IMG/VR virus record: IMGVR_UViG_3300025430_000103
Span: 1-25,299 of that record
DNA from: a virus
Reading direction: 5' to 3' (one strand)
DNA: 25,299 nucleotides
Position 1 is the first letter of the stretch, and every line of letters begins with the position of its first letter. The notes under the pieces are model-generated. The model worked only from the letters and a program-made list of their open reading frames with translations. It was not told the origin of the DNA and searched no databases. This document shows, piece after piece, positions 2,130-25,290 of this stretch. The position numbers and the translations under genes were made by a program.

Positions 2130-3647
2130 ATGGCAACATACGCCCGTCCCGGGGTTTACGTCACAGAGACGCTTAACCCTGTACAACCTATTGTCGGTCC
2201 TTCCTCAACGTCTATCGGCGCTTTTATTGGCGCTAATGACCGCGGACCAAACGCTGTAACACTTGTTACTTCGTGGAGCCAATACACAAGCCTGTATGGT
2301 TCTTGGAACACCATCGCAAGCAACAGCCTTCCTTTGGCTGTTTATCTTTTCTTTGCAAATGGTGGAAGCCAGTGCTACGTGTACCGCGTTGCTGGTGCAT
2401 CTTCAACAACTGCTAACAGAACCCTAAGCGACCAAGCAGGTACCCCACTTGCTACTCTTAAAGTGAGCGCTAAAAACATTGGCTCTTGGGGCAACAGCAT
2501 TAACGTCAGCACTGTAGCCTCATCACTTACAGGTTACTTTAGTCTCATTGTTTATTACGGTGGCAGTTCTGCCGGTAACATCGTAGAGCAGTGGAATGAC
2601 ATTACAATGCTCTCTACTGACCCACGGTATGCAGTCAACGTTATCAACAACAACTCTACATGGATTGCTGTTCAAGACCTTGGCTCCGCCTCTACCGCTC
2701 CTACAAACAACCCATCAGTTGTTACCAACCAGTCTTTGAGTTCTGGTTCAGACGGCTCCGCAGTAACTTCTTCAACGATTGTTACTTACGCTCTTTCTAG
2801 CCCAAGCCCATTTGATACCGTAACTCAATCTCTTATCCTGAACATTCCCGGGTATACAGATGCCACAACTATTAACGCCGCTATTGCTTACGCTGTTGGG
2901 CGCGGAGATGTTTTTGTAGTTGTTGATGGAATTAACGATACTGCTGCTAACCAACTTAGCCTAGCCGCTACGTATACTTCAACATCACAAGCCGCTGTTT
3001 ACTACCCTCAAATCACTATTGCTGACCCAACAGTCGGTGTTGGTGCCTCAACAGGTGCGGTAAAGACAGTTGGTGCTGGTGCCGCTGTAGTTGGTCTTTT
3101 TGTAAAGACAGACGCCACTCGTGGAGTGTTTAAAGCCCCTGCTGGATTGGCCGCCCGTATTACTGGCGCAGTATCAGTAACGGCTTTGAGTTCAAGTGAC
3201 CTTGACACCCTTAACATCACAAACCCACCGGTCAATGCTATTAAGTATGTTCCCGGCTCAGGCATTGTCGTGTATGGTGCTCGCACCCTTAAAGCAGGTT
3301 ACATAGACCGCTATGTTCCTGTACGTAGAACGCTTATCTACTTAGAAAAGGCTCTTAAAGATTTAACGGCTTACGCTGTGTTTGAGCCTAACGACCAACG
3401 CCTATGGAATAGCCTTAACGCTACCTGTAGCGCTTTCCTCACAGCCTTTTGGCAACAAGGCGGTCTATCTGGAACAACGCCATCTGCCGCGTTTTTTGTT
3501 AAGTGTGATTCAACGCTTAACCCTCAAACAGCCATTGACAACGGCTATGTAAACATTCAAGTAGGTGTTGCATTGCAACGTCCTGCTGAATACGTAGTAA
3601 TCAACATCGGACAATACAGTGGCGGAACTACCGTCACCATCGCGTAA
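2130..3647 (+). CDS. Contractile tail sheath protein
   Basis: 505 residues with a strong AAGGAG site. The N-terminus has the typical sheath opening ARPGVYVTE, then SIGAFIGANDRGP and the block around SLYGSW. The C-terminal 150 residues hold the conserved sheath core: VPVRRTLIYLEKAL, VFEPNDQRLW, LTAFWQQGGLSG, AFFVKCD, and the terminal VGVALQRPAEYVVINIGQ. The protein polymerises around the tail tube and contracts on infection. The middle (about residues 100-300) is Ser/Thr-rich and variable, as expected for the surface domain. Tube and baseplate genes follow in canonical order, so the assignment is secure. Confidence 0.96.
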   Translation: MATYARPGVYVTETLNPVQPIVGPSSTSIGAFIGANDRGPNAVTLVTSWSQYTSLYGSWNTIASNSLPLAVYLFFANGGSQCYVYRVAGASSTTANRTLSDQAGTPLATLKVSAKNIGSWGNSINVSTVASSLTGYFSLIVYYGGSSAGNIVEQWNDITMLSTDPRYAVNVINNNSTWIAVQDLGSASTAPTNNPSVVTNQSLSSGSDGSAVTSSTIVTYALSSPSPFDTVTQSLILNIPGYTDATTINAAIAYAVGRGDVFVVVDGINDTAANQLSLAATYTSTSQAAVYYPQITIADPTVGVGASTGAVKTVGAGAAVVGLFVKTDATRGVFKAPAGLAARITGAVSVTALSSSDLDTLNITNPPVNAIKYVPGSGIVVYGARTLKAGYIDRYVPVRRTLIYLEKALKDLTAYAVFEPNDQRLWNSLNATCSAFLTAFWQQGGLSGTTPSAAFFVKCDSTLNPQTAIDNGYVNIQVGVALQRPAEYVVINIGQYSGGTTVTIA

Positions 3648-3661
3648 GGAGATAAGGCCAA

Positions 3662-4342
3662 ATGCCTAGCACAACGCTTAGTACCTATAACTCAAGTCTG
3701 GCTACAGACCCTTTACGCGGGTTTCGATTTACTGCCAGTTTTCAAGCCGCATCGGCGGACATTGCTGGTGTTTTTGATAAGCGTATCAAAGACGCCTCCG
3801 CCATTAACACCCCCTCTAGTGGAGTCTCCACGGGCTGGGTTGGTGGGTTCACAAACGTAAGTGGACTTAACATTAACACCCAGTCAATCCAATACCGTGA
3901 AGGTGGCTACGCTACTACGGTCCATCAGATTCCGGGTATGACTACATTTAACCCAATTACGTTTACACGTGGGGTTCTTTATGGAAATGACCAAGCCATT
4001 ACATGGATGCGTGGGTTGTTTACCGCTGCTCAAGGTTCCGGCCTTAACAGTTCAGTAATCAATAACCCAAGCAACAACCCTATTTCTCAAGGGGCCAACT
4101 TTCGTGTTGATGTAATTCTTACTGTAAACCAACACCCCAACACAAACGCTACGGCAGACATTCCAGTAATGCGCTTTAAGATTCACAATGCGTGGATTAC
4201 TAATCTTGCATTTACAGACCTTGACGCTACTAACGGCGCCATTTTGTTTGAGACCATGCAGTTGGTCCATGAAGGCCTTTCAGTCTTCTTTACAGACTCA
4301 AATGGAAATCCAGTAGATGGTCTAGGACTTACCGCTTACTAA
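3662..4342 (+). CDS. Tail tube protein (T4 gp19-like)
   Basis: 226 residues with an AAGGAG site between it and the sheath gene. Near the N-terminus DPLRGFRFTASF matches the 'DP.r.f.F.v.f' opening of gp19-type tube proteins. The middle holds GGYATTVHQIPGMTTFNPITFTRGV, the tube loop/strand pattern ('R.g......~pG...~~~itl.rG'). The C-terminal part with FKIHNAWITNLAFTDLDATNGAILFETMQLVHEGL is the conserved final strand-helix region. This protein forms the inner tube through which DNA passes. Position directly after the sheath is diagnostic. Confidence 0.94.
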   Translation: MPSTTLSTYNSSLATDPLRGFRFTASFQAASADIAGVFDKRIKDASAINTPSSGVSTGWVGGFTNVSGLNINTQSIQYREGGYATTVHQIPGMTTFNPITFTRGVLYGNDQAITWMRGLFTAAQGSGLNSSVINNPSNNPISQGANFRVDVILTVNQHPNTNATADIPVMRFKIHNAWITNLAFTDLDATNGAILFETMQLVHEGLSVFFTDSNGNPVDGLGLTAY

Positions 4343-4364
4343 TAGATAACAAGGAGAACTAATC

Positions 4365-5150
4365 GTGACACCAGAAGTAATTACAGATGCTGAACTTATT
4401 AACAAGTTTGCCGCACAGGCTCAGGCAGGGGCAGTAGTAGAAGCACCTACTAAAGCCCCTCCTAGCACAGAGGTTCACCTGCCCGGTGGGTTTATGTGGA
4501 ACGGAGAGTTGATTAAGTCAGCCGAAGTACGAGAACTTACAGGAATAGATGAAGAGGCAATCTCTAAAGCACCTAGCCTAGGAAAGTCTATTACAACTAT
4601 CTTAGAGCGCGGTTTAAAGAAACTTGGCAATAAAGATGCAACCCGTGAAGACCTAGACGCCCTTTTGTCCGGGGACCGCGACGCTATCTTTATCGGTATT
4701 CGCAGAGTTACTCTTGGAGACACTATTGGCTTCAAGACGCGGTGCGGAAACTGCGCTGAAGAACAAGACATTTCTATTGACCTTGGCGAGGACATTCCAG
4801 TTGTAGAACTAGAAGAGTCTCGCTCTTGGAAAATTGAAACTAAAAAGGGTTACGTAGAAGTTGCTTTACCTACAGGAGTCACACAACGTAAATTGCTGGA
4901 CAACATGGATAAAAAGTCTGCGGAGATTAATACCTTGCTACTTGCAGGATGTGTGCTCTCTGTAAATGGAGAACCGTCTATGGGCGCTAGCACTGTTCTT
5001 AATTTTGGCATGGCTGACCGAGCCAAAATTATTGACGAGATTTTACAGAAAAACCCGGGCCCACGCCTTGGGGAGGTGACGAAGACCTGCAAGGCATGTG
5101 GAGAAAAGATTGCTCTGCCACTTGGACTTGCAGACTTGTTTCTCCTATAA
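4365..5150 (+). CDS. Tail-assembly / baseplate-hub assembly protein with zinc ribbon (T4 gp26-like, chaperone position)
   Basis: 261 residues from a GTG with AAGGAGAAC six bases upstream. It contains LPGGFMWNG, LTGIDEEAI, a GDRDAIFIGIRRVTLGD core, and two Cys pairs, RCGNC (about residue 127) and TCKAC (about 243), which should form a zinc ribbon. This layout resembles the T4-like baseplate/hub assembly family and occupies the slot between tube and tape measure, where tail-assembly chaperones sit. Family assignment is from pattern memory and position. A second frame overlaps its 3' end and continues to 5292, probably reached by frameshifting (see the next entries). Confidence 0.7.
   Translation: MTPEVITDAELINKFAAQAQAGAVVEAPTKAPPSTEVHLPGGFMWNGELIKSAEVRELTGIDEEAISKAPSLGKSITTILERGLKKLGNKDATREDLDALLSGDRDAIFIGIRRVTLGDTIGFKTRCGNCAEEQDISIDLGEDIPVVELEESRSWKIETKKGYVEVALPTGVTQRKLLDNMDKKSAEINTLLLAGCVLSVNGEPSMGASTVLNFGMADRAKIIDEILQKNPGPRLGEVTKTCKACGEKIALPLGLADLFLL
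5000..5031. repeat. 10-bp perfect inverted repeat inside the chaperone gene
   Basis: TAATTTTGGC (5000-5009) and GCCAAAATTA (5022-5031) are exact reverse complements separated by 12 bases. Transcribed, they would give a moderately stable hairpin inside the coding sequence, about 100 bases upstream of the frame-overlap region. It is too far upstream to be a usual frameshift stimulator. It may be chance. Confidence 0.4.
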
Positions 5151-15076: not shown

Positions 15077-15748
15077 TTGGATAACGCAATAGTAGTCGCT
15101 GGAACAGGAGCGTCCAGCAGGGCAAACATTGAAGCACTTATAGAAGACTACCTTTACAGCCATGGGCAAGAAATAGGCTTTGTACTGGTCTATGACAAGA
15201 AACCTAGCCAAGGACAAGTATTTGCCGCCCAGTTTGCTAGAGATAAAGGCAAAGAGATAGTTGTAATCTGTAATGAAGACGCCAGTTATGATGGAATACC
15301 CGGCGCCTCGGTAGTCTTTAGCGAAAACCATAAGAAGACGCTAAAACAAATGTACGACGCTAACTTTGTGGCTTTTGTCCTCATAGATGATGAAGACACA
15401 GAGCAGTGGCAGTTGCTAGAGTCCTTCCATAAACTAGGAATACTTATGTTTGACCTTACCGAAGGCCTAGTCCCGATAAAGTATGATGATAAGTTCAAGA
15501 AGCCTACGGAACCTGTAATTCCTGAGGCTGAGAAAGTAGAAGAAGAAAATCCCTCAGAGGAAACTGCTGAGGAGGACCTTGAACCTGAGGTCGAAGAAGA
15601 AGAAGAAGAAAACCCTGACGAAGAAGAGGACCAGACCCTCGACGAGTTAGAGGACGAAGCGTACTTCGGCATGATGGCCTTTGCCAAAATGATTGCCAAG
15701 TTAGTCGTCAAAGAGATGAATAAGTCTTCTGAGGAAGGCGAGAAGTGA
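15077..15748 (+). CDS. Rossmann-like N-terminal domain with highly acidic C-terminal region, unknown function
   Basis: 223 residues from a TTG preceded by AAGGAGG. Residues 1-135 alternate strands and helices: NAIVVAGTGASSRANIEALIE, GFVLVYDKKPSQGQVFAAQFA, KEIVVICNE. This is reminiscent of nucleotide-binding SLOG/YspA-like folds, but I see no decisive motif. Residues about 139-195 are dominated by Glu, Asp and Pro, including a run of six Glu encoded by (GAA)6. The C-terminus (AYFGMMAFAKMIAKLVVKEMNK) is an amphipathic helix. It lies between the tail genes and the replication operon and its GTGA overlap couples it to the winged-helix gene. DNA mimicry or a scaffolding/partner-binding tail are possible; neither is shown. 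Confidence 0.6.
   Translation: MDNAIVVAGTGASSRANIEALIEDYLYSHGQEIGFVLVYDKKPSQGQVFAAQFARDKGKEIVVICNEDASYDGIPGASVVFSENHKKTLKQMYDANFVAFVLIDDEDTEQWQLLESFHKLGILMFDLTEGLVPIKYDDKFKKPTEPVIPEAEKVEEENPSEETAEEDLEPEVEEEEEENPDEEEDQTLDELEDEAYFGMMAFAKMIAKLVVKEMNKSSEEGEK
15593..15610 (+). repeat. (GAA)6 trinucleotide repeat
   Basis: Six consecutive GAA codons inside the acidic region of the preceding gene. A change in unit number would add or remove a Glu without shifting frame, so it is length-variable rather than an on/off switch. Confidence 0.8.
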
Positions 15749-16590
15749 TTTCAGCCAGAGCCATTGCAGTACTAGAAGAGATAGCCCTAGACCCCGACCA
15801 TGGAGCGGCTAAGGGCATTTCTTCAAAGGTTGGTGAGGGCAGAGAAGCCGTCCAGTCGGCTATAAGTGAACTGAGGGCCGAGGGGTTAATAAAAACCGCT
15901 ACGGCCAAGCATCATAACGGAAATGTTATAAGCACTATAAGAATTACTGATGCGGGCCACCGGTTACTGGAAACCCGTATCCACAGATTGCTGTATGTGC
16001 TGAATAAGCAGAATACTTTATTAGTCCCTAAAGCCTATTCTGCTTATTCAAGCATAAAAATAGTCATGGGCGCCGCCCATGGGGAGGCAAAAGCGATGGA
16101 TGAAGAGTGGTATTCCTTAGGGCAGATGGATACAGACTACGAGGAGATTGCCCGCTTAAAGCGCGAAGACAAGAAACAGCGTCAAGAGCAGTACAGGGAG
16201 ATGAAGAACTCTCAGGCTAAAGCGAAGATTAATAATCTCGCTAACCTCCAGCCTGCTGACTGGACTGTTGATAACGCCGTGTACGAGTTTGCTCGTCGCA
16301 TGGTTCGCTGGGACATCCCACCGTGGGAAGGTTCACGGCGCAGGTTTGCAGGCGCTTACTCTCAGGCTCAAAAGGTTTACCAGACCAACGGCGAAATAGA
16401 AGCAAAGATGATGGACCTTTTCTTTGCCAGAATTGACCATGAGGGCGGCCTTAAAGACCCTGACATGATTTGGAAGATGTTTATTAAGTCCTTTGGCAAC
16501 CTTTACCATGAAGTTACCCTGTCTATGGTTAGTCAAGACACTATTGCGGCTGACAAAGCAAAGGCCGCTAAAGAACTGGAAAAGTTTTAG
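15745..16590 (+). CDS. Winged-helix protein, candidate replication initiator
   Basis: 281 residues from a GTG overlapping the previous stop (GTGA). Residues 1-78 form a winged helix (GAAKGISSKVGEGREAVQSAISELRAEGLIK, then a beta wing and ITDAGHRLLE). Residues 80-130 are a linker, about 130-160 a charged coiled coil (EEIARLKREDKKQRQEQYREM), and 172-260 a helical region with WTVDNAVYEFARRMVRWDIPPWEG. An N-terminal DNA-binding domain joined by a linker to a partner-binding part, directly upstream of an AAA+ loader and a DnaB-type helicase, fits a phage replication initiator. The linker-coding DNA holds strong inverted repeats (16001-16081). A transcription regulator is the alternative. It overlaps the loader start (TAGTG). 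Confidence 0.6.
   Translation: MISARAIAVLEEIALDPDHGAAKGISSKVGEGREAVQSAISELRAEGLIKTATAKHHNGNVISTIRITDAGHRLLETRIHRLLYVLNKQNTLLVPKAYSAYSSIKIVMGAAHGEAKAMDEEWYSLGQMDTDYEEIARLKREDKKQRQEQYREMKNSQAKAKINNLANLQPADWTVDNAVYEFARRMVRWDIPPWEGSRRRFAGAYSQAQKVYQTNGEIEAKMMDLFFARIDHEGGLKDPDMIWKMFIKSFGNLYHEVTLSMVSQDTIAADKAKAAKELEKF
16001..16050. repeat. 15-bp perfect inverted repeat with inner stem, candidate origin element
   Basis: TGAATAAGCAGAATA (16001-16015) and TATTCTGCTTATTCA (16036-16050) are exact reverse complements. Inside them CTTTA (16016-16020) pairs with TAAAG (16029-16033), leaving an 8-base loop and a 2-base bulge at 16034-16035. This is the strongest hairpin I found inside a coding region. It lies in the initiator linker, as the iterons of lambda ori lie in gene O. 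Confidence 0.8.
16065..16081. repeat. 17-base GC-rich palindrome next to the 15-bp inverted repeat
   Basis: CATGGGCG, a central C, and CGCCCATG are perfect 8-base arms with a one-base centre. It starts 14 bases after the previous repeat, and the spacer (16051-16064, AGCATAAAAATAGT) is A/T-rich. Together the two repeats form an origin-like cluster. Confidence 0.75.
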
Positions 16591-17276
16591 TGTTTAACTT
16601 AGACGACCTTAAGTTACGGCGCAAGGCTTGGGTACAAGCGGCCCACATTAACCCTAATCGCCTTGGCTGGGTCGTTAGCGACTGCACAGCCCTTTCTAAA
16701 GAAGACCAGACCATTATCTATAAGTGGATGGAGGCTGTTAAAGAGGGACAAGTTATTCGGTCTGTAGGAAACAGTCGTTGCGGGAAAGGTTTACTTCTTG
16801 TCGGTGAACCCGGCCATGGTAAGACAACCATCGCACTCTCTATCATTCAAGAGATAATGCTGACATTTCCTTTGTCATCCTTTGACGTGCAGGCAAACCG
16901 TGTTCTTATTCGCCCGTGCTACTTTACAACCTTTAACGACATTTTAGATTTAAAGGGCAGTTTAATTAGTGACCCTGATGACGCAGACGCTGATTTGCTT
17001 TACCAAGGGATGCTGGGAGAGTGCCCTAACGATGCTTACAACATTAGGGTTCTTGTTATAGACGACTTAGGAAAAGAGCACGCTTCGCTTTCAGGTTGGC
17101 AGAAAAATACATTTCACCATGTGTTGCGGACACGTTTTAACAATGGATTGCCTACCATTGTCACTACCAACATTCGGCGGGATAACTGGAAAGGTCTTTA
17201 CGGGGAGGCTACTGAAAGTTTTGCCCACGAGGCATTTATTCATTTGCCGATTGTTATGACTGACCTACGAAAGTGA
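16590..17276 (+). CDS. AAA+ helicase loader (DnaC/IstB-like)
   Basis: 228 residues; the GTG start overlaps the previous TAG. Walker A is GEPGHGKT (72-79), Walker B VLVIDDLG with D158-D159, and sensor-1 is the TTN in IVTTNIRRD (about 192-198). This set, with a helix carrying WQKNTFHHVLRTRFNNGLPTIVTTN, is characteristic of DnaC-type loaders that place the replicative helicase on DNA. The DnaB-type helicase lies three genes downstream. A short N-terminal region (about residues 1-60) may contact helicase or the winged-helix protein. The length is usual for the family. Confidence 0.88.
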   Translation: MFNLDDLKLRRKAWVQAAHINPNRLGWVVSDCTALSKEDQTIIYKWMEAVKEGQVIRSVGNSRCGKGLLLVGEPGHGKTTIALSIIQEIMLTFPLSSFDVQANRVLIRPCYFTTFNDILDLKGSLISDPDDADADLLYQGMLGECPNDAYNIRVLVIDDLGKEHASLSGWQKNTFHHVLRTRFNNGLPTIVTTNIRRDNWKGLYGEATESFAHEAFIHLPIVMTDLRK

Positions 17277-17608
17277 GACCCACAATGAACTTGAGACTCT
17301 TACAGGTCTTTTTAAGTACCTCTAAGACAGTTCCAAGCCCCGGAATTTTTGAAGTCTCTGTTTCTATTCCTGATAACCCTGATGAAGAAGGAGAACTCCT
17401 TTGTACATGCCCCGGGTTTAAGGCTAAGAGTTCATGCAAGCATGTAAGGTTCGTTAGGGATAAGATGCTCAAGAATCAAAGCAACCCCGGCGTGTATCCC
17501 ATGGACATTTCTGTATCTGCAACAGACGCCGATAAAGTAAATGCAAAGAAGTCTTTAGAGAACGCTAGAGAGTTTGTTCTTAAATTTGGAAAGGTAGAGG
17601 TCTACTAA
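17273..17608 (+). CDS. Small SWIM-type zinc-finger protein
   Basis: 111 residues from a GTG overlapping the loader stop (GTGA). An ATG at 17285 is a possible later start. The motif C44-T-C46...C55-K-H57 fits the SWIM pattern CxC...CxH, a zinc site found in DNA- or protein-binding proteins. Flanking strands (GIFEVSVSI, GELLCTCPGF) match the usual SWIM beta-hairpin. The rest is helical and charged (NAREFVLKFGKVEVY). Its place between helicase loader and helicase implies a replication or repair accessory role; the precise function is unknown. The stop overlaps the next ATG (TAATG). Confidence 0.75.
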   Translation: MRPTMNLRLLQVFLSTSKTVPSPGIFEVSVSIPDNPDEEGELLCTCPGFKAKSSCKHVRFVRDKMLKNQSNPGVYPMDISVSATDADKVNAKKSLENAREFVLKFGKVEVY

Positions 17609-18015
17609 TGCAACATGGTGATTTAAGTAATGAACTTCCGAAGCGGGTACTTGTCACCACTGACGCTTTTTCTACTGTTGAGCCGCTTATTAAGAAGAAG
17701 TGGAAAGTCATACCCACAATCCACAAAGAGTTAAAGATACGTAAGGACTTACTAAGTAAGTTTTATCTTTTTACTACCGTTAAAGGAGTCACTCTAGAAG
17801 TTGTTTCTTATGACTTAGACGACGAGCAGTTGCAGACCCTTATGGATACTCTAGACGAGATGGGTACTAATCCTTTTAGATACTCTCATGCTTATGTTTC
17901 TATGGAGAGTCTTATCTCCGACCTCCCTCTTCGGCCTGAGGTACTTGGAGTCATTGATGTGCCTTCTAACCTTTTGCGCTACGGCCACTGGGGAATGGAC
18001 TTTAATTATCTATGA
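17608..18015 (+). CDS. Unknown protein in replication operon
   Basis: 135 residues; the start overlaps the SWIM gene stop. I do not recognise the family. It is soluble, with mixed helices and strands (KRVLVTTDAFSTVEPLIKKKWKVIPTIHKELKIRKDLLSKFYLFTTVKGVTLEVVSYDL), an acidic helix DDEQLQTLMDTLDEM, and an aromatic end with RYGHWGMDFNYL. There is no Cys motif and no membrane segment. Overlaps on both sides (TAATG and ATGA) place it in the same translational unit as the SWIM protein and the DnaB-like helicase, so it may be a helicase partner. That is context-based inference. Confidence 0.7.
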   Translation: MQHGDLSNELPKRVLVTTDAFSTVEPLIKKKWKVIPTIHKELKIRKDLLSKFYLFTTVKGVTLEVVSYDLDDEQLQTLMDTLDEMGTNPFRYSHAYVSMESLISDLPLRPEVLGVIDVPSNLLRYGHWGMDFNYL

Positions 18016-19241
18016 ACAATGAAGCCAAACTGCTCGGGAAGTTGGTCACAGAAGAGAAGGCGCTTGGTTATGCGTTAGAGCGCGGTATCTCAGAAGACTG
18101 GTTCTTAGACCCCACAGATAAACACATCTTTAAGTTCTTGCACCAGCACTTCTCTTTTTATCAAGACACGCCTAGCCTTGAGGTAATTAAGGCTAATTTT
18201 CCTAACTACGTTCCTGAGTCTTCTACTGACTCTTTAGAGTACTTTATTGACAAGGTAGTAGAGGCCCGTAGAAAGTCTGTACTTATCAATACCCTTATTG
18301 ACGCTAGTAAAGACGTTGAGAAGAATCAAGACCATGAGGCCGCAATCCTTACCCTACAAAAAGGACTTTCTGCTTTAGAGCAGGCAGGACTTAATAACAC
18401 AACAGACATTGAGATTAGAAAAGCATCATCACAAGCGCTTACTGAGTACCAAGATAGAAAATCTAACCCCGGCCTTTTAGGCTTATCTACAGGTTTTCCC
18501 ACAATGGATGCCTCTACGTCAGGGCTTCAACCCGGTCAGTTGGTTGTTATTGTGGCGCCACCTAAGACAGGTAAATCAACTCTTGCTTTGCAAATTGCTA
18601 GTACCGTGCACTACAACGGGTTTACCCCACTCTTTATCTCTTTTGAGATGAGCAACGCAGAGCAAAAGACTCGTTACTACGCAATGAAGGCAAAGGTTTC
18701 ACATCAACGCCTGATAACAGGAACTCTTACGGCAGAAGAAGAGGCTCGTTACGTAACAATCATTTCTGGGATTCAAAACATGACCTCAGATTTTTGGCTA
18801 ACAGGTTCAGCCGAGGGCTTAACAGTCAGCGCGGTAGCGGCTAAAATTCAAAGCAAGAACCCTGACATTGTGTTTATTGATGGAACCTACTTGATGTTTG
18901 ACGAGGTGACGGGGGAGTCCAACACCCCTCAGGCTATTACTCAGATTACCCGTAGCCTTAAGCGCCTAGCCATGAAGATAAATAAGCCCATCGTGATTTC
19001 TACGCAGGCCCTTGCGTGGAAGATGAAAAAAGGGCAGGTAAACGCCGACTCTATTGGATACTCCTCTTCTTTTCACCAAGATGCAGACGTTATCTTCGGA
19101 TTACAGCGGGAAGATGAGGCGGTAGAGCACACTCGCCTGCTTCGGGTAATCGCGGCTCGTAACTCTGGATTATCTGAGGTATCCTTAATGTGGGACTGGA
19201 ACACAGGGGTTTTCAGAGAGATGGACAACGATGACTTATGA
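18012..19241 (+). CDS. dnaB: DnaB-type replicative DNA helicase
   Basis: 409 residues; ATGA overlap with the previous gene. Residues 1-110 are the helical N-terminal domain (LLGKLVTEEKALGYALERGISEDWFLDPTDKHIF...). The RecA-like motor has LSTGFPTMDASTSGLQPGQLVVIVAPPKTGKST, with Walker A at 182-190, PLFISFEMSNAEQ (motif H1a), Walker B DIVFIDG around D290, and the DnaB-like QITRSLKRLAMKINKPIVISTQ. The end has RNSGLSEVSLMWDWNTGVF. It unwinds DNA at the phage fork as a hexamer. It is slightly shorter than cellular DnaB, as usual in phages. RadA-like function is unlikely given the N-terminal domain and primase nearby. Confidence 0.92.
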   Translation: MNNEAKLLGKLVTEEKALGYALERGISEDWFLDPTDKHIFKFLHQHFSFYQDTPSLEVIKANFPNYVPESSTDSLEYFIDKVVEARRKSVLINTLIDASKDVEKNQDHEAAILTLQKGLSALEQAGLNNTTDIEIRKASSQALTEYQDRKSNPGLLGLSTGFPTMDASTSGLQPGQLVVIVAPPKTGKSTLALQIASTVHYNGFTPLFISFEMSNAEQKTRYYAMKAKVSHQRLITGTLTAEEEARYVTIISGIQNMTSDFWLTGSAEGLTVSAVAAKIQSKNPDIVFIDGTYLMFDEVTGESNTPQAITQITRSLKRLAMKINKPIVISTQALAWKMKKGQVNADSIGYSSSFHQDADVIFGLQREDEAVEHTRLLRVIAARNSGLSEVSLMWDWNTGVFREMDNDDL

Positions 19242-19372
19242 TTCGCCGGAAGGGCCTAGAGAGGGTAATTCGGGTTTTAGCACTTCGCAGTTCTAATGCC
19301 GCCACCCCCATTAAAAACAAGAAGAAATACTCTCGCACGGTAAAGCACAAGGGGAAGAATAAGCATGAGTGA
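19238..19372 (+). CDS. 44-residue strongly basic protein between helicase and primase
   Basis: The ATG at 19238 overlaps the helicase stop (ATGA) and the TGA at 19370-19372 lies inside the primase start region, so the frame exactly bridges the two genes. The product MIRRKGLERVIRVLALRSSN... is followed by a Lys-rich tail (NKKKYSRTVKHKGKNKHE). With about a third of residues Arg/Lys it could bind DNA or RNA or the fork proteins. It is too short for a family call. Overlap on both sides favours it being translated. Confidence 0.6.
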   Translation: MIRRKGLERVIRVLALRSSNAATPIKNKKKYSRTVKHKGKNKHE

Positions 19373-20288
19373 GATGGAGTCAACCCTAGACAGTTTAGGG
19401 ATAAAGATTGTCGGAGTACGTGGTTCTGAGATTCAGGCTAATTGCCCCGCTCATTTAGAGCGCACTGGTCACGAAGATAGCAACCCTTCGTGGTACATAA
19501 ACGCAGATTCAGGCGCCCACTTATGTTTTTCATGCGGCTTTAAAGGGAACCTCTACTCTCTTATTGCTTACGTTAAAGGTGTTCCAATAGACCAAGCCAC
19601 AGACTGGGCAAACACTTCATTAGACTTAGTTACGAGAATGACAAAGTTATTGGGCCCAGAGAGCCTTCCTGAGCAGGCTGACCTACTTACCATTACAGAG
19701 TCAATGCTGAGTGCCTACACAGCAGTCCCTGATGAGTTTCTTTTATCTCGTGGCCTTTCACGGGAGGCGGCTCGGACCTATGGCATTAAATACGACTTTT
19801 CTAAAAACTGTTGGATTATCCCCGTAAGAGATGCCTACGGGCAGTTGTTAGGTTGGCAGGAGAAAGGGGTTACTGGCCGTTACTTCAATAACTGCCCAAA
19901 GGGCATAAAGAAGGGAAAGGCCCTTTTTGGATTTAACCAGTACAAGCATGGAGACATGATTGTCGTTGAGTCACCCTTAGATGTGGTTCGCATGGCTTCG
20001 GTGGGCATTGCCGGTGGGGTAGCCACTTTTGGGTGCGGGATTACAGTTGACCAGTTAAACACTATTCGGGGCGCTGATAGGGTCATTTTTGCTCTAGACA
20101 ACGACGAGGCAGGCAGGGCCGCTTCCCGAGACATTCTTGCTAGGTGCCGTGAGGTGAAGGCCGAAGCGTGGTTTTTTGACTATTCAGGCACAGACGCAAA
20201 AGACGTGGGAGCCATGTCTAGGTCAGAAATTATGGTAGGTTTAGAGAACGCGCACCACATGATTAAGGGAGAAATTTTATTTAAATGA
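19365..20288 (+). CDS. dnaG: DnaG-type primase
   Basis: 307 residues. Residues 27-57 form the zinc-binding domain with C27-P-A-H30 and C54-F-S-C57 (a CHC2-type finger with a fairly long loop). The TOPRIM core shows MIVVESPLDVVRM (E202) and ALDNDEAGR (D245, D247). Between them lie LLSRGLSREAARTYGIKYD and NCWIIPVRDAYGQLLGWQEK, standard RNA-polymerase-domain landmarks. It lacks a recognisable C-terminal helicase-binding domain, so it is shorter than bacterial DnaG and may contact DnaB differently. It makes primers for lagging-strand synthesis. The ATG at 19365 is preferred; a second ATG lies three codons on. Confidence 0.9.
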   Translation: MSEMESTLDSLGIKIVGVRGSEIQANCPAHLERTGHEDSNPSWYINADSGAHLCFSCGFKGNLYSLIAYVKGVPIDQATDWANTSLDLVTRMTKLLGPESLPEQADLLTITESMLSAYTAVPDEFLLSRGLSREAARTYGIKYDFSKNCWIIPVRDAYGQLLGWQEKGVTGRYFNNCPKGIKKGKALFGFNQYKHGDMIVVESPLDVVRMASVGIAGGVATFGCGITVDQLNTIRGADRVIFALDNDEAGRAASRDILARCREVKAEAWFFDYSGTDAKDVGAMSRSEIMVGLENAHHMIKGEILFK

Positions 20289-20662
20289 GAGCGACAAAAA
20301 TCTACATAGCAGGCCCTATGACTGGCTTGCCAGATTACAACTACCCCGCGTTTAACGAGGCCGAGTCCTACATTAAGAGCCTTGGGTACGAAACAGAGAA
20401 CCCCGCTTCTGCTCCAGATGTAGCAAATGGTTTTCCTTACCAAGGTGCTCCTTACGAGTGGTACCTCCGTCGCGCACTTCGCCAAGTACTTGATTGCGAC
20501 ATGCTTGTCTATCTACCCGGTTCTGACAACTCTAAAGGCGCTCAGTTAGAGATGACTATTGCTAGAGCACTAGCGATGCCGATTATTAGCCTTGAAGAGT
20601 TTACAAAGCACCACGACCTCTTTATCAACAAATTTGCAGAGGGAGAACCTAGTAATGGCTAA
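20285..20662 (+). CDS. DUF4406 / nucleoside 2-deoxyribosyltransferase-like protein
   Basis: 125 residues; the ATG overlaps the primase stop. KIYIAGPMTGLPDYNYPAFNEAE (residues 5-27) is the clear start of DUF4406-type proteins, a Rossmann-like relative of nucleoside 2-deoxyribosyltransferases. YEWYLRRALRQVLDCDMLVYLPGSDNSKGAQLEMTIARALAMPI is the second half, with the G.E..~A helix. It may act on nucleotides or nucleosides in phage DNA metabolism. The kinase gene that follows fits that theme. The true substrate is not known. Confidence 0.88.
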   Translation: MRATKIYIAGPMTGLPDYNYPAFNEAESYIKSLGYETENPASAPDVANGFPYQGAPYEWYLRRALRQVLDCDMLVYLPGSDNSKGAQLEMTIARALAMPIISLEEFTKHHDLFINKFAEGEPSNG

Positions 20663-21212
20663 ATTAGTAGGCCTTTCAGGCTATGCCCAAGCGGGCAAAG
20701 ATACAGTTGCTAACTACCTAGTAAAAGAACATAACTTTACAAGGCTAGCCTTTGCTGATGGTATTCGTAACTTTCTCTATGAGATAAACCCCATCGCAGA
20801 GCAGGACGAGTTTTTTAACAACATTCGTGTACAGTCTCTTGTAGACGAGCACACGTGGGACGTTGCCAAGATTACGACTCCTGAGATTCGTACCTTGCTT
20901 CAAAAGTTAGGTGTTGGCGCTCGTAAAGTGTTTGGTGACACCTTTTGGGTAGACCAAGTGTTCAACGTGGTAAAAGCCAACCCTGAGAACAACTACGTCA
21001 TTACTGATGTTCGTTTTCAAAATGAGGCAACTGCTCTTAAAGAGGTTGGTGGAAGTCTTTGGCGCATTGAACGCGCAGGCGTTGGTGCCGCAAATGACCA
21101 CATCTCTGAGCATGATTTAGATAATTGGACCTTTGACACGTACCTACATAATAACTCTACGATTGAAGACCTAGAGTTTGCAGCAAAGGTTACACTTCAA
21201 AGCCTTAACTAA
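20655..21212 (+). CDS. Deoxynucleoside monophosphate kinase-like protein (T4 gp1-like)
   Basis: I chose the ATG at 20655 because GAGGGAG lies about nine bases upstream and the P-loop then begins at residue 9. A longer frame from 20592 would place 21 residues inside the previous gene. The 185-residue product has LSGYAQAGKDT (P-loop, residues 7-17), FTRLAFADGIR, an LLQKLGVGARKVFGDTFWVDQVF segment, and ITDVRFQNEATALKEVGG with D118 and R120. This set is typical of T4 gene 1-type dNMP kinases, which phosphorylate deoxynucleoside monophosphates for phage DNA synthesis. It overlaps the previous gene by eight bases. Confidence 0.85.
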   Translation: MAKLVGLSGYAQAGKDTVANYLVKEHNFTRLAFADGIRNFLYEINPIAEQDEFFNNIRVQSLVDEHTWDVAKITTPEIRTLLQKLGVGARKVFGDTFWVDQVFNVVKANPENNYVITDVRFQNEATALKEVGGSLWRIERAGVGAANDHISEHDLDNWTFDTYLHNNSTIEDLEFAAKVTLQSLN

Positions 21213-21234
21213 AGGTTAAAGCAAGGGGAGCGCT

Positions 21235-21507
21235 ATGGACAACGCAAAAAACCGTATTGCTGATGGGGCTAACTCTAACTGGATTGGAGTTCCTAAGTCG
21301 TATGTTTTTACTGTGCATGAGAGTAAAGTTTCACGTAGCGCTCCTATTGCAGACCACGTTTACTTTTCAATACCTTGCCCTAAAAACCATTACAACAACG
21401 TAACGGTCTCTAGTAACTATTTTGGGTATTTGCGTGCAACTAACGCTACAGAATCTGTTTTGTGCGGGAAGTGCGACATAGGTTTTAACGTAGAGGTCGT
21501 TCCATGA
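21235..21507 (+). CDS. Small zinc-ribbon protein, first of a tandem pair
   Basis: 90 residues with an AAGGGGAGC site. A CPKNH motif (C-x3-H) is followed 24 residues later by CGKC (CxxC), giving a likely zinc-binding set. Strands flank both halves (HVYFSIPCPKNH, SVLCGKCDIGFNVEV). I do not know the family. The next gene has the same C-x3-H / CxxC design with similar spacing (26 residues), so the two may be diverged paralogues. It precedes an SNF2-type helicase. Its stop overlaps the next start (ATGA). Confidence 0.75.
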   Translation: MDNAKNRIADGANSNWIGVPKSYVFTVHESKVSRSAPIADHVYFSIPCPKNHYNNVTVSSNYFGYLRATNATESVLCGKCDIGFNVEVVP

Positions 21508-21800
21508 CCCGTATCCCTAATAGCATTGCAGAGCGCACAGATAAAATTCTTGCCTCTGATTTTAAATTAAAATTTATTTGTAATGTTAAAGTCTACGCAG
21601 TGTCGCCGCTGTCTCCAGCAAATTTATTAAACCCATACCTTGAACTTGTTATTGGATGTTCTAGTGGCCACCTTGTGACTTTAGGAAGTACAAGAAATAA
21701 TCTTTTGCACCAACTAAAAGATAAGCCTTACATAGAAGGAGGCCATACGTGCCAAATTTGCACCGAGCATTACACTATTAGGCTTTATACTCCAGCATGA
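21504..21800 (+). CDS. Small zinc-ribbon protein, second of a tandem pair
   Basis: 98 residues; ATGA overlap. CSSGH (C-x3-H) and CQIC (CxxC), 26 residues apart, repeat the pattern of the preceding gene. The region between differs (HLVTLGSTRNNLLHQLKDKPYIEGGHT), so similarity is in the metal ligands and strand order rather than in overall identity. It may bind nucleic acid or a partner such as the helicase whose start overlaps its stop. Function is not known. Confidence 0.75.
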   Translation: MTRIPNSIAERTDKILASDFKLKFICNVKVYAVSPLSPANLLNPYLELVIGCSSGHLVTLGSTRNNLLHQLKDKPYIEGGHTCQICTEHYTIRLYTPA

Positions 21801-23386
21801 GTTTTACAGGAACGCTTTTACCCTACCAGCCTGAGGCTGTAGACCGCATGTGCGAACGAGGCAACATGTTAGTTGCTTATGACCTTGGACTAGGTAAAAC
21901 AGTTCTTACTATTGCCGCATTAGAACGACTTATAGATGAAGGTAAAGTAACTGAACCCGGGTTAATTATCTGTTTATCTTCTCTTAAATACCAATGGCAG
22001 GGGCAGATAGATAAATTTACTAGTAGCACTGGTAGAGCACTTGTTATAGATGGCACCCCTGCTAAACGCACAGAACAGTACGAGTCAGCAATGAACTGGG
22101 AAGAGTCTGGTGTTGAGTATGTCATTCTTAATTATGAGCAGGTCGTTAATGACTGGAAATTTGTAGAGAAATTACCGCGTGGTTTTGTGGTACTAGATGA
22201 AGCCACTGCAATTAAATCTTTTCGCTCTAAACGCGCCAAGCACGTTAAGAAGTTAATTACTACTCCTTACCGTTTTGCTCTTACAGGTACTCCTATAGAA
22301 AATGGCAAGCCCGAAGAGTTGTACAGCATTATGCAGTTTGTAGATGCCTCTGTGCTAGGCCGCTTTGACATCTTTGACTCGGCCTTTATTGTGCGTAATA
22401 AGTGGGGAGGCGTAGACCGCTACCGCAACCTGCAAACCTTGCACACTAAGATGAAAGAGGCTTCAGTACGTAAGGCGCAGAAAGACCCAGACGTTGCTCC
22501 ATACTTGCCAGAGTCTATTCATAAAGACCCTATCTACATTCATTTTGACCGTAAATCCAGCAAACTTTACAAGCGAATAGCCGACGACCTACTCCATGAC
22601 CTCGATGAGGCGCAGGAACTTTTTGGTACCTCTTTTAACATCTTTGCTCATTACGGCGTTGAGTCCTCTTCTGACAGTATGGAAAATGAAATGCGCGGGA
22701 AGATTATGTCCAAGATAGGCGCCCTTAAAATGCTCTGTTCTCACCCACAACTATTAAAGACAAGCGCGGAGAAGTACCTCATAGGCGCAGGAGAAGGCTC
22801 TGCTTACATACATACCCTAGAGGCCACAGACGCCTTTGATGGTCTCGTAAACTCCCCAAAGTTAGACTTTCTTGTTCAGTATGTAAAAGAGTTCCTAGAG
22901 CAGGACGAGGCTAACAAAGTCGTTATTTTTGCCACCTATGTAGACATGCTAGAGATTATTCAGGCCGCCCTTGGCCCTGAGCAGTGTCGTCTCTACTCAG
23001 GGAAGTTAAACGCCAAAACAAAGGAGGAGAACAAGATTGCTTTCAATACTAATCCTGCTGTTAAGGTCCTTATTAGTTCTGACGCGGGTGGTTATGGTGT
23101 TGACCTCCCTGCCGCGAATCTGCTGGTCAACTATGACCTCCCTTGGTCGTCAGGCGCGGCGGTTCAACGTAATGGCCGGATTAAGAGGGCCTCTAGTACG
23201 TGGGAGACCATAGTTATCCAAGACATACTGATGGATAACTCTATAGAAGCCCGCCAATGGGCTCTTTTACAGCAGAAATCGGCCCTAGCAGATGCAATCA
23301 TTGATGGGGAAGGTATTACCGCTGAGGGAGGCATTGTGCTTACCGCAGGAAGTTTACGTAGGTTTTTAGGCTCGGCCACGGTATAG
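21797..23386 (+). CDS. SNF2/superfamily 2 DNA helicase-ATPase
   Basis: 529 residues; ATGA overlap. Motifs are in order: LLPYQPEAVDRM (Q-motif-like), DLGLGKT (29-35, Walker A), DEAT (134-137, motif II), LTGTPIENG (162-170, motif III), KVVIFATYVDMLEII (motif IV), SSDAGGYGVDLPAANLLVNYDLPW (motif V), and QRNGRIKR (457-464, motif VI). This is the SNF2-type layout with both RecA-like lobes. Phage relatives are thought to act in replication, recombination or transcription remodelling. DEAT in place of DEAH is a small variant. No nuclease domain was seen. Confidence 0.93.
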   Translation: MSFTGTLLPYQPEAVDRMCERGNMLVAYDLGLGKTVLTIAALERLIDEGKVTEPGLIICLSSLKYQWQGQIDKFTSSTGRALVIDGTPAKRTEQYESAMNWEESGVEYVILNYEQVVNDWKFVEKLPRGFVVLDEATAIKSFRSKRAKHVKKLITTPYRFALTGTPIENGKPEELYSIMQFVDASVLGRFDIFDSAFIVRNKWGGVDRYRNLQTLHTKMKEASVRKAQKDPDVAPYLPESIHKDPIYIHFDRKSSKLYKRIADDLLHDLDEAQELFGTSFNIFAHYGVESSSDSMENEMRGKIMSKIGALKMLCSHPQLLKTSAEKYLIGAGEGSAYIHTLEATDAFDGLVNSPKLDFLVQYVKEFLEQDEANKVVIFATYVDMLEIIQAALGPEQCRLYSGKLNAKTKEENKIAFNTNPAVKVLISSDAGGYGVDLPAANLLVNYDLPWSSGAAVQRNGRIKRASSTWETIVIQDILMDNSIEARQWALLQQKSALADAIIDGEGITAEGGIVLTAGSLRRFLGSATV

Positions 23387-24082: not shown

Positions 24083-24547
24083 ATGCCTGACGAGATTGAC
24101 ACCTTATTTGCCGGGGTAGACGAGTTCTACCCCGGCAGTAAACGCAAGCGTAGAGCAGTTGCTATTAAAGAACCTGTAACAAGAGCAGATACCAACTGGG
24201 ATGTTAACCCGACCAAACGCACACTACCTAACGGTAAAGACCTTGAACTTTTTGCTATTGGCGCACTTGCACGCGCCCTTGGACGACCAATCATTACTAT
24301 TCGCTCATGGATGAAAGAAGGCCACTTTCCTCCAGCCCCCTATAGACTTCCTGCTAAGAAAGATAAGCATGGAGAAACCCATCTAGGCAAGCGCCTTTAC
24401 TCACGCGCCATGATTGAAGAGACCATAAATCTCTTTAGTAAATACGGTGTTTTAGAGGCGACTCGTATAGAATGGTCTACACACCGGAATCTCAGCCTTG
24501 AGATAACCGAGGCGTGGAATAAAATCCGCGCAACTGAAACCCAATAA
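24083..24547 (+). CDS. MerR/excisionase-like helix-turn-helix protein
   Basis: 154 residues. Residues about 54-90, ELFAIGALARALGRPIITIRSWMKEGHFPPAPYRLP, form a MerR-like HTH with the 'R.W...G..P.P' wing seen in excisionases and phage regulators. LGKRLYSRAMIEETINLFSKYGV (about 102-128) completes the wing and the next helix ('r.Y....i......~~~~'). The N-terminal 50 residues are basic and probably disordered (SKRKRRAVAIKEP). It likely binds DNA as a regulator or architectural protein; there is no integrase nearby to support an excisionase role. Translation probably depends on the 16-residue frame just upstream. Confidence 0.75.
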   Translation: MPDEIDTLFAGVDEFYPGSKRKRRAVAIKEPVTRADTNWDVNPTKRTLPNGKDLELFAIGALARALGRPIITIRSWMKEGHFPPAPYRLPAKKDKHGETHLGKRLYSRAMIEETINLFSKYGVLEATRIEWSTHRNLSLEITEAWNKIRATETQ

Positions 24548-25248: not shown

Positions 25249-25290
25249 GTTAGAGGCTGGGCACCCCCTTCCCCAGCCTCTAACTTATTT
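25249..25290 (+). terminator. Strong intrinsic terminator
   Basis: GTTAGAGGCTGGG (25249-25261) pairs perfectly with CCCAGCCTCTAAC (25272-25284), a 13-bp GC-containing stem with a ten-base loop, followed by TTATTT. It ends the replication/regulation gene block right after the ssDNA-binding candidate. It is the strongest terminator in the window. Confidence 0.92.

Follow-up and report, generated by a model that had tools for sequence, protein, structure and literature searches.

The window analysed here, a stretch of 25,299 nucleotides of viral DNA (IMG/VR record IMGVR_UViG_3300025430_000103, positions 1 to 25,299), harbors contractile-tail genes (sheath, tube, baseplate) upstream of an initiator-like gene, which is followed by genes for a helicase loader, a replicative helicase and a primase. 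These genes, and the sequence features that lie within the initiator-like gene, are:

15745-16590, + strand: initiator-like gene, 281 amino acids, GTG start; winged helix (residues 1-85), linker (86-129) and helical C-terminal domain (132-280)
15999-16064, no strand assigned: A/T-rich, synonymously constrained box
16001-16015, + strand: left arm of a 15-bp perfect inverted repeat, TGAATAAGCAGAATA
16016-16033, + strand: inner 5-bp stem, CTTTA (16016-16020) and TAAAG (16029-16033), with an 8-nt loop
16036-16050, + strand: right arm of the 15-bp perfect inverted repeat
16051-16064, + strand: 14-nt A/T-rich spacer, AGCATAAAAATAGT
16065-16081, no strand assigned: GC palindrome (hairpin 2), CATGGGC-GCC-GCCCATG, 7-bp stem and 3-nt loop, with about 20 covarying stem types in the family
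16083-16087, + strand: internal Shine-Dalgarno sequence GGAGG, 8 nt before the internal start
16096-16590, + strand: predicted short product of 164 amino acids from an in-frame ATG at codon 118, the C-terminal domain alone
16590-17276, + strand: DnaC-like helicase loader (phrog_50, E 8.5e-25)
17273-17608: small gene with a possible SWIM zinc finger (below cut-off)
17608-18015: second small gene
18012-19241, + strand: DnaB-like replicative helicase (phrog_19, E 7.7e-61)
19365-20288, + strand: DNA primase with CHC2 zinc finger and Toprim domain (phrog_47, E 3.4e-40)

The product of 15745-16590 was modelled with AlphaFold2 using 36 family members (mean pLDDT 78.6). Structure comparison of the model showed that the winged-helix domain matches PadR/MarR structures, and members of the initiator alignment match replication-initiation, O-like and DnaD-like PHROGs, namely phrog_270, phrog_678 (O-like) and phrog_186 (DnaD-like); these matches are weak and at the domain level only. 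The modelled fold and these matches support the description of the protein as winged-helix and initiator-like. An O/DnaD-class initiator encoded beside a helicase loader, as found here with weak initiator matches, is one feature of origins of the lambda type. Residues 86-129 are disordered in the model and correspond to 16000-16131, which agrees with the placement of the repeat cluster by the first-pass annotation in the linker-coding part of the gene; the 15-bp repeat, the inner 5-bp stem, the 14-base spacer and the 17-base palindrome that it described are all present where it located them. The loader, helicase and primase that it listed as the next genes do follow, with the addition of the two small genes between loader and helicase. 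The 123-nt gap between the helicase and primase genes (19242-19364) recurs in close relatives of the window, but L009 and L010, among others, have only about 6 nt there. The region 3′ of the primase gene (20285-23386) contains genes for a nucleoside deoxyribosyltransferase/MazG-like protein, a dNMP kinase and an SNF2-family helicase.

Scans with the initiator, loader and helicase and with profile queries yielded more than 100 IMG/VR phage loci, which were dereplicated to 37 linkers of <93% identity. The proteins of these 37 relatives are 25-51% identical to the initiator of the window. All are uncultured contigs that may be incomplete, and the family is one of environmental contractile-tailed phages. 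No cultured relative of the initiator was found among 50,697 phage records, and no prophage relative was confirmed in 84,980 species genomes; relatives of the loader occur in actinophages, where the upstream genes are unrelated. The linker placement of the element and the following loader, helicase and primase genes are maintained down to about 26% identity. A search of Rfam returned only mir-26, a chance match of 18 bits where the gathering score is 57.

Of the repeats in the cluster, hairpin 2 is the conserved one. It is found at the same place, with a strict stem of 6-7 bp and a loop of 3-4 nt, in 32 of the 37 dereplicated relatives, which are not independent samples, the roughly 20 distinct stem sequences being the fairer count. 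Two relatives have a shorter hairpin (5+5) and three have none, which counts against its being part of a lambda-type origin. A hairpin with a 7-bp stem and 3-nt loop is not rare by itself (related phage DNA has about 0.1 per kb), and a stem of at least 6 bp arises in 18% of synonymous shuffles of the window's initiator gene. Its occurrence in 30 of 35 tested relatives compares with 1.8 expected from synonymous shuffling. Of the two repeats, it is the palindrome that relatives keep; the 15-bp repeat as such is absent from the relatives and is peculiar to the lineage of the window phage.

Comparison of the 21 distinct 17-mers of hairpin 2 revealed that pairing is retained while the sequence changes: 96.6% of cells are paired, against 31-40% in slid controls, and 55 double-sided changes were counted against 14 after shuffling, with none of 500 shuffles as high. 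The inner six pairs are Watson-Crick in 202 of 204 cells, with no G-U and no A-C pair, a count that the strict-stem search favours somewhat, although stems with wobble pairs would have appeared as shorter ones. The triloops (n=28) are also restricted, with GAA in 11 and GGA in 10, together 21 of 28. Where the loop is an in-frame Gly codon it is GGA in six of seven cases (24% GGA elsewhere), and where it is an in-frame Glu codon it is GAA in 10 of 11 (44% elsewhere); five hairpins that lie in another reading frame, from two lineages, likewise have GAA or GGA loops. The hairpin of the window, with its GCC loop, is an exception to this preference. Triloops of the d(GNA) type are a family of stable DNA structures, of which the GNRA tetraloops are the RNA counterpart (PMC5815330). 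Because of the strict Watson-Crick pairing without G-U and the GNA-type loops, the data point to hairpin 2 being formed in DNA, its GNA loop lying on the + strand, which is an argument and not a proof.

The promoter of the N4 virion RNA polymerase is a DNA hairpin of up to 7 bp with a 3-nt loop and a sheared G:A pair that extrudes in vivo under physiological supercoiling (PMC4496689). N4 promoter hairpins share their short stem (5-7 bp) and 3-nt G-N-A loop with the 21 of 28 hairpins mentioned above, and this same physical form raises the question whether hairpin 2 is an N4-like extruded promoter, or a site of primer synthesis for RNA polymerase or primase. N4 hairpins, however, require fixed stem bases and transcribe from a fixed +1C, whereas the present family retains pairing and loop type alone: its stem sequences are wholly replaced between relatives, and no C stands at a fixed position after them. 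Moreover, a rightward start would fall in or after the Shine-Dalgarno sequence in the window and in similar clades. We therefore regard such a promoter or priming site as improbable. An intrinsic terminator of leftward (antisense) transcription, formed by hairpin 2 and a T-tract on the minus strand, would account for a terminator-like match on the minus strand of the window and for the presence of at least five T in the eight positions after the hairpin in 22 of 34 relatives. Next to an A/T-rich box, however, T-rich tails are no surprise, and in many relatives they are interrupted (for example TATTCGGT); since termination would also leave the constraint on the whole box and the loop preference unexplained, we give this explanation very little credence.

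The A/T-rich box precedes hairpin 2. In the relatives, the 45-60 nt 5′ of the hairpin average 73-79% A+T (60-80% in the bins of the window), and the Ser, Asn, Leu and Tyr codons in this segment are shifted to A/T-rich ones. In seven clades, synonymous change is near zero (0.00-0.14 in most bins) over the roughly 40 codons that precede the internal start, as against 0.3-0.6 in most of the remaining gene in the more diverged clades. These values support the conclusion that codon need falls far short of explaining the constraint on the linker-coding DNA. AATAGC-like repeats can be seen by eye in many boxes, but ungapped direct or inverted repeats do not exceed a codon-controlled null across the family, the window excepted, and clear iterons were not seen. 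When gaps are allowed, folding of the box exceeds the null to a similar degree on the two strands (mean z -1.28 and -1.14; p 0.44 for the difference), which is what a DNA dyad would give.

In the window, the arms at 16001-16015 and 16036-16050 are complementary at 15 of 15 positions with 20 nt between them, and form the longest perfect inverted repeat of the 25.3 kb (loop up to 40). In 1000 synonymous shuffles of the linker the longest repeat was 13 bp, so that 15 bp was never reached. A comparison of folding energy with shuffled versions, as the first-pass annotation had suggested, gave for the 121-nt stretch a z of -4.6 as DNA and -3.4 as RNA. Because gapped folding of the box exceeds the null on both strands throughout the family and ungapped repeats do so only in the window, the 15-bp repeat may be considered an extreme, lineage-specific form of a weak dyad tendency. 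Two other perfect inverted repeats were noticed in the window, one of 13 bp with a 10-nt loop at its right end (25249-25284, GTTAGAGGCTGGG) and one of 12 bp with a 5-nt loop (24109-24137, TGCCGGGGTAGA) within the open reading frame 24083-24547.

An internal start and its ribosome-binding site, which the first-pass annotation did not include, are located 3′ of hairpin 2. All 37 relatives possess an in-frame start at the end of the linker (ATG in 26 and GTG in 11; GTG makes up 16% of the Val codons elsewhere). A Shine-Dalgarno sequence of at least 5 nt precedes this start in 22 of 37 relatives, compared with 13.2 expected from synonymous shuffles and 21 in the highest of 200 shuffle sets, and sequences of that length occur at 3.6% of other in-frame ATG or GTG codons. 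We infer from this that a C-terminal-only isoform devoid of the DNA-binding domain can be made beside the full initiator; such an isoform, predicted from the internal start, may regulate helicase loading. In T7 gene 4A/4B and in trfA of plasmid RK2 an in-frame internal start likewise gives an N-terminally truncated replication protein. Unlike in those systems, it is precisely the DNA-binding domain that would be lost in the proposed truncation, and the start neighbours an origin-like DNA element. A search of the open literature yielded no paper in which a phage origin is combined with an internal start.

An alternative is that the element acts in the mRNA, with the A/U-rich stretch and hairpin 2 insulating or presenting the internal ribosome-binding site and so setting the ratio of the two products, or with both serving as an autoregulatory operator. 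The conserved start is always 3′ of the hairpin and usually has a ribosome-binding site, the hairpin directly abuts the Shine-Dalgarno sequence in the window and in several clades, and the covariation is compatible with any hairpin. However, the distance from hairpin 2 to the start varies from 9 to 42 nt across the relatives, whereas its spacing to the A/T box is about fixed; the hairpin is therefore not a mere component of the ribosome-binding site. The lack of G-U among the inner pairs, loops that are DNA-type triloops and not RNA-type tetraloops, and a box that shows no folding preference for the sense strand also argue for a structure in DNA. In the L106 clade, furthermore, the constraint spans box and hairpin and relaxes between hairpin and start. 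A function in the mRNA is accordingly doubtful, though it deserves to be weighed.

An argument that a swap of the DNA-binding domain with retention of the hairpins excludes an initiator site was weakened, since the recognition-helix motif EGR[ED]A is common to domain types A and B; partial Mantel tests were used in its place. Once the C-terminal domain is controlled for, the A/T box correlates weakly with the N-terminal domain (r 0.34, p 0.0005), in contrast to hairpin 2 (r -0.02, p 0.57). Box and hairpin both track the C-terminal domain (0.50 and 0.54). L035 and L036, for example, have N-terminal domains that are far apart (distance 0.77) and an identical hairpin 2. Because hairpin 2 does not covary with the DNA-binding domain, binding of the initiator to its own gene would take place at the A/T box at most. 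The correlation of the box is compatible with such predicted binding, but may reflect linkage only, because the box sits physically between the two domains. L096 and L104 have similar N-terminal domains and A/T boxes and different hairpins and C-terminal domains; a recombination breakpoint apparently lies within the element.

Another conceivable role for the cluster is that of an operator, through which a regulator would control an internal promoter; the winged-helix protein could itself be this regulator. Palindromes of 15-19 bp are typical of operators, and the winged-helix domain resembles PadR/MarR proteins. The sequence of the palindrome changes without regard to the DNA-binding domain, however, and a sigma-70-like promoter was not found at the cluster; an operator is thus hardly to be expected.

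Among the closest parallels to the element is the lambda origin in gene O (NC_001416, locus L163). In lambda, too, the element is located in linker-coding initiator DNA, an A/T-rich stretch is followed by a hairpin, and the helicase-loader gene comes next. In gene O the same measurements found iterons, followed by a stretch of 73-80% A+T and after it a 6-bp hairpin. Binding of O opens an adjacent A+T region of 40 bp (PMC5043065). Lambda differs in having four recognisable iterons of 18-19 bp, where none stand out clearly in the present family, and in the hairpin, which has a 6-bp stem with a 6-nt loop instead of the strict 6-7 bp and GNA-type loop seen here. Codon 176 of lambda O is a GTG without a ribosome-binding site, whereas the family of the window phage has a strong internal one. 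In addition, the loader of the window phage is DnaC-like and the phage encodes its own helicase and primase. Overall, the most likely reading, to which we give about an even chance, is that the initiator gene contains a lambda-type origin and is in addition translated from two starts.

On this reading, the A/T box would be the place where the winged-helix initiator acts and the duplex opens. Upon melting or negative supercoiling, the GNA-type hairpin would form on the + strand next to the box, and it could mark or stabilise the opened region so that the DnaC-like loader and the DnaB-like helicase can be loaded. The in-frame start just 3′ would supply the C-terminal-only isoform alongside the full initiator. 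A more specific version, which we put forward tentatively as possible but less than probable, is that a structure-recognised GNA-triloop DNA hairpin, driven by supercoiling or melting and selected for its pairing instead of its sequence, is placed between an A/T-rich opening site and the internal start, so that a single linker would combine origin and isoform switch. The identity of the element as origin, binding of the initiator to the box, the role of the hairpin and synthesis of the short product are each what we infer from sequence comparison. If the interpretation is correct, the origin of a large family of uncultured phages is located to about 100 nt, and includes a structural part that evolves by pairing alone. 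Short extruded hairpins in DNA are well known from the promoters of N4, but an origin role for a strictly covarying GNA-loop hairpin would be new, as far as we have found.

The first-pass annotation had regarded the cluster as a phage origin resembling lambda ori. This view agrees with the linker position, the A/T richness, the constraint and the layout, but the change in GC skew that it anticipated at the site was not borne out. A skew switch would support an origin of this type without being one of its defining features. In the window and in two relatives, the minimum of the raw cumulative GC skew falls 1-2 kb to the left of the internal start; at fourfold-degenerate sites there is no switch at the element in any of six records (the window and five large relatives). 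The raw minimum is therefore ascribed to coding bias, and skew was given no weight as origin evidence. The local jump in GC and AT skew is probably caused by the gene directly 5′ of the initiator gene (15077-15748), the protein of which carries a very acidic, low-complexity tail rich in Glu and Asp. This gene adjoins the initiator gene in most relatives, at about 41-47% identity. A seeming in-frame fusion of this gene with the initiator gene, by way of the acidic tail, is seen in L129 (about 3119-4414), where the initiator lacks its first residues; it is possibly an assembly artefact at the repetitive stretch.
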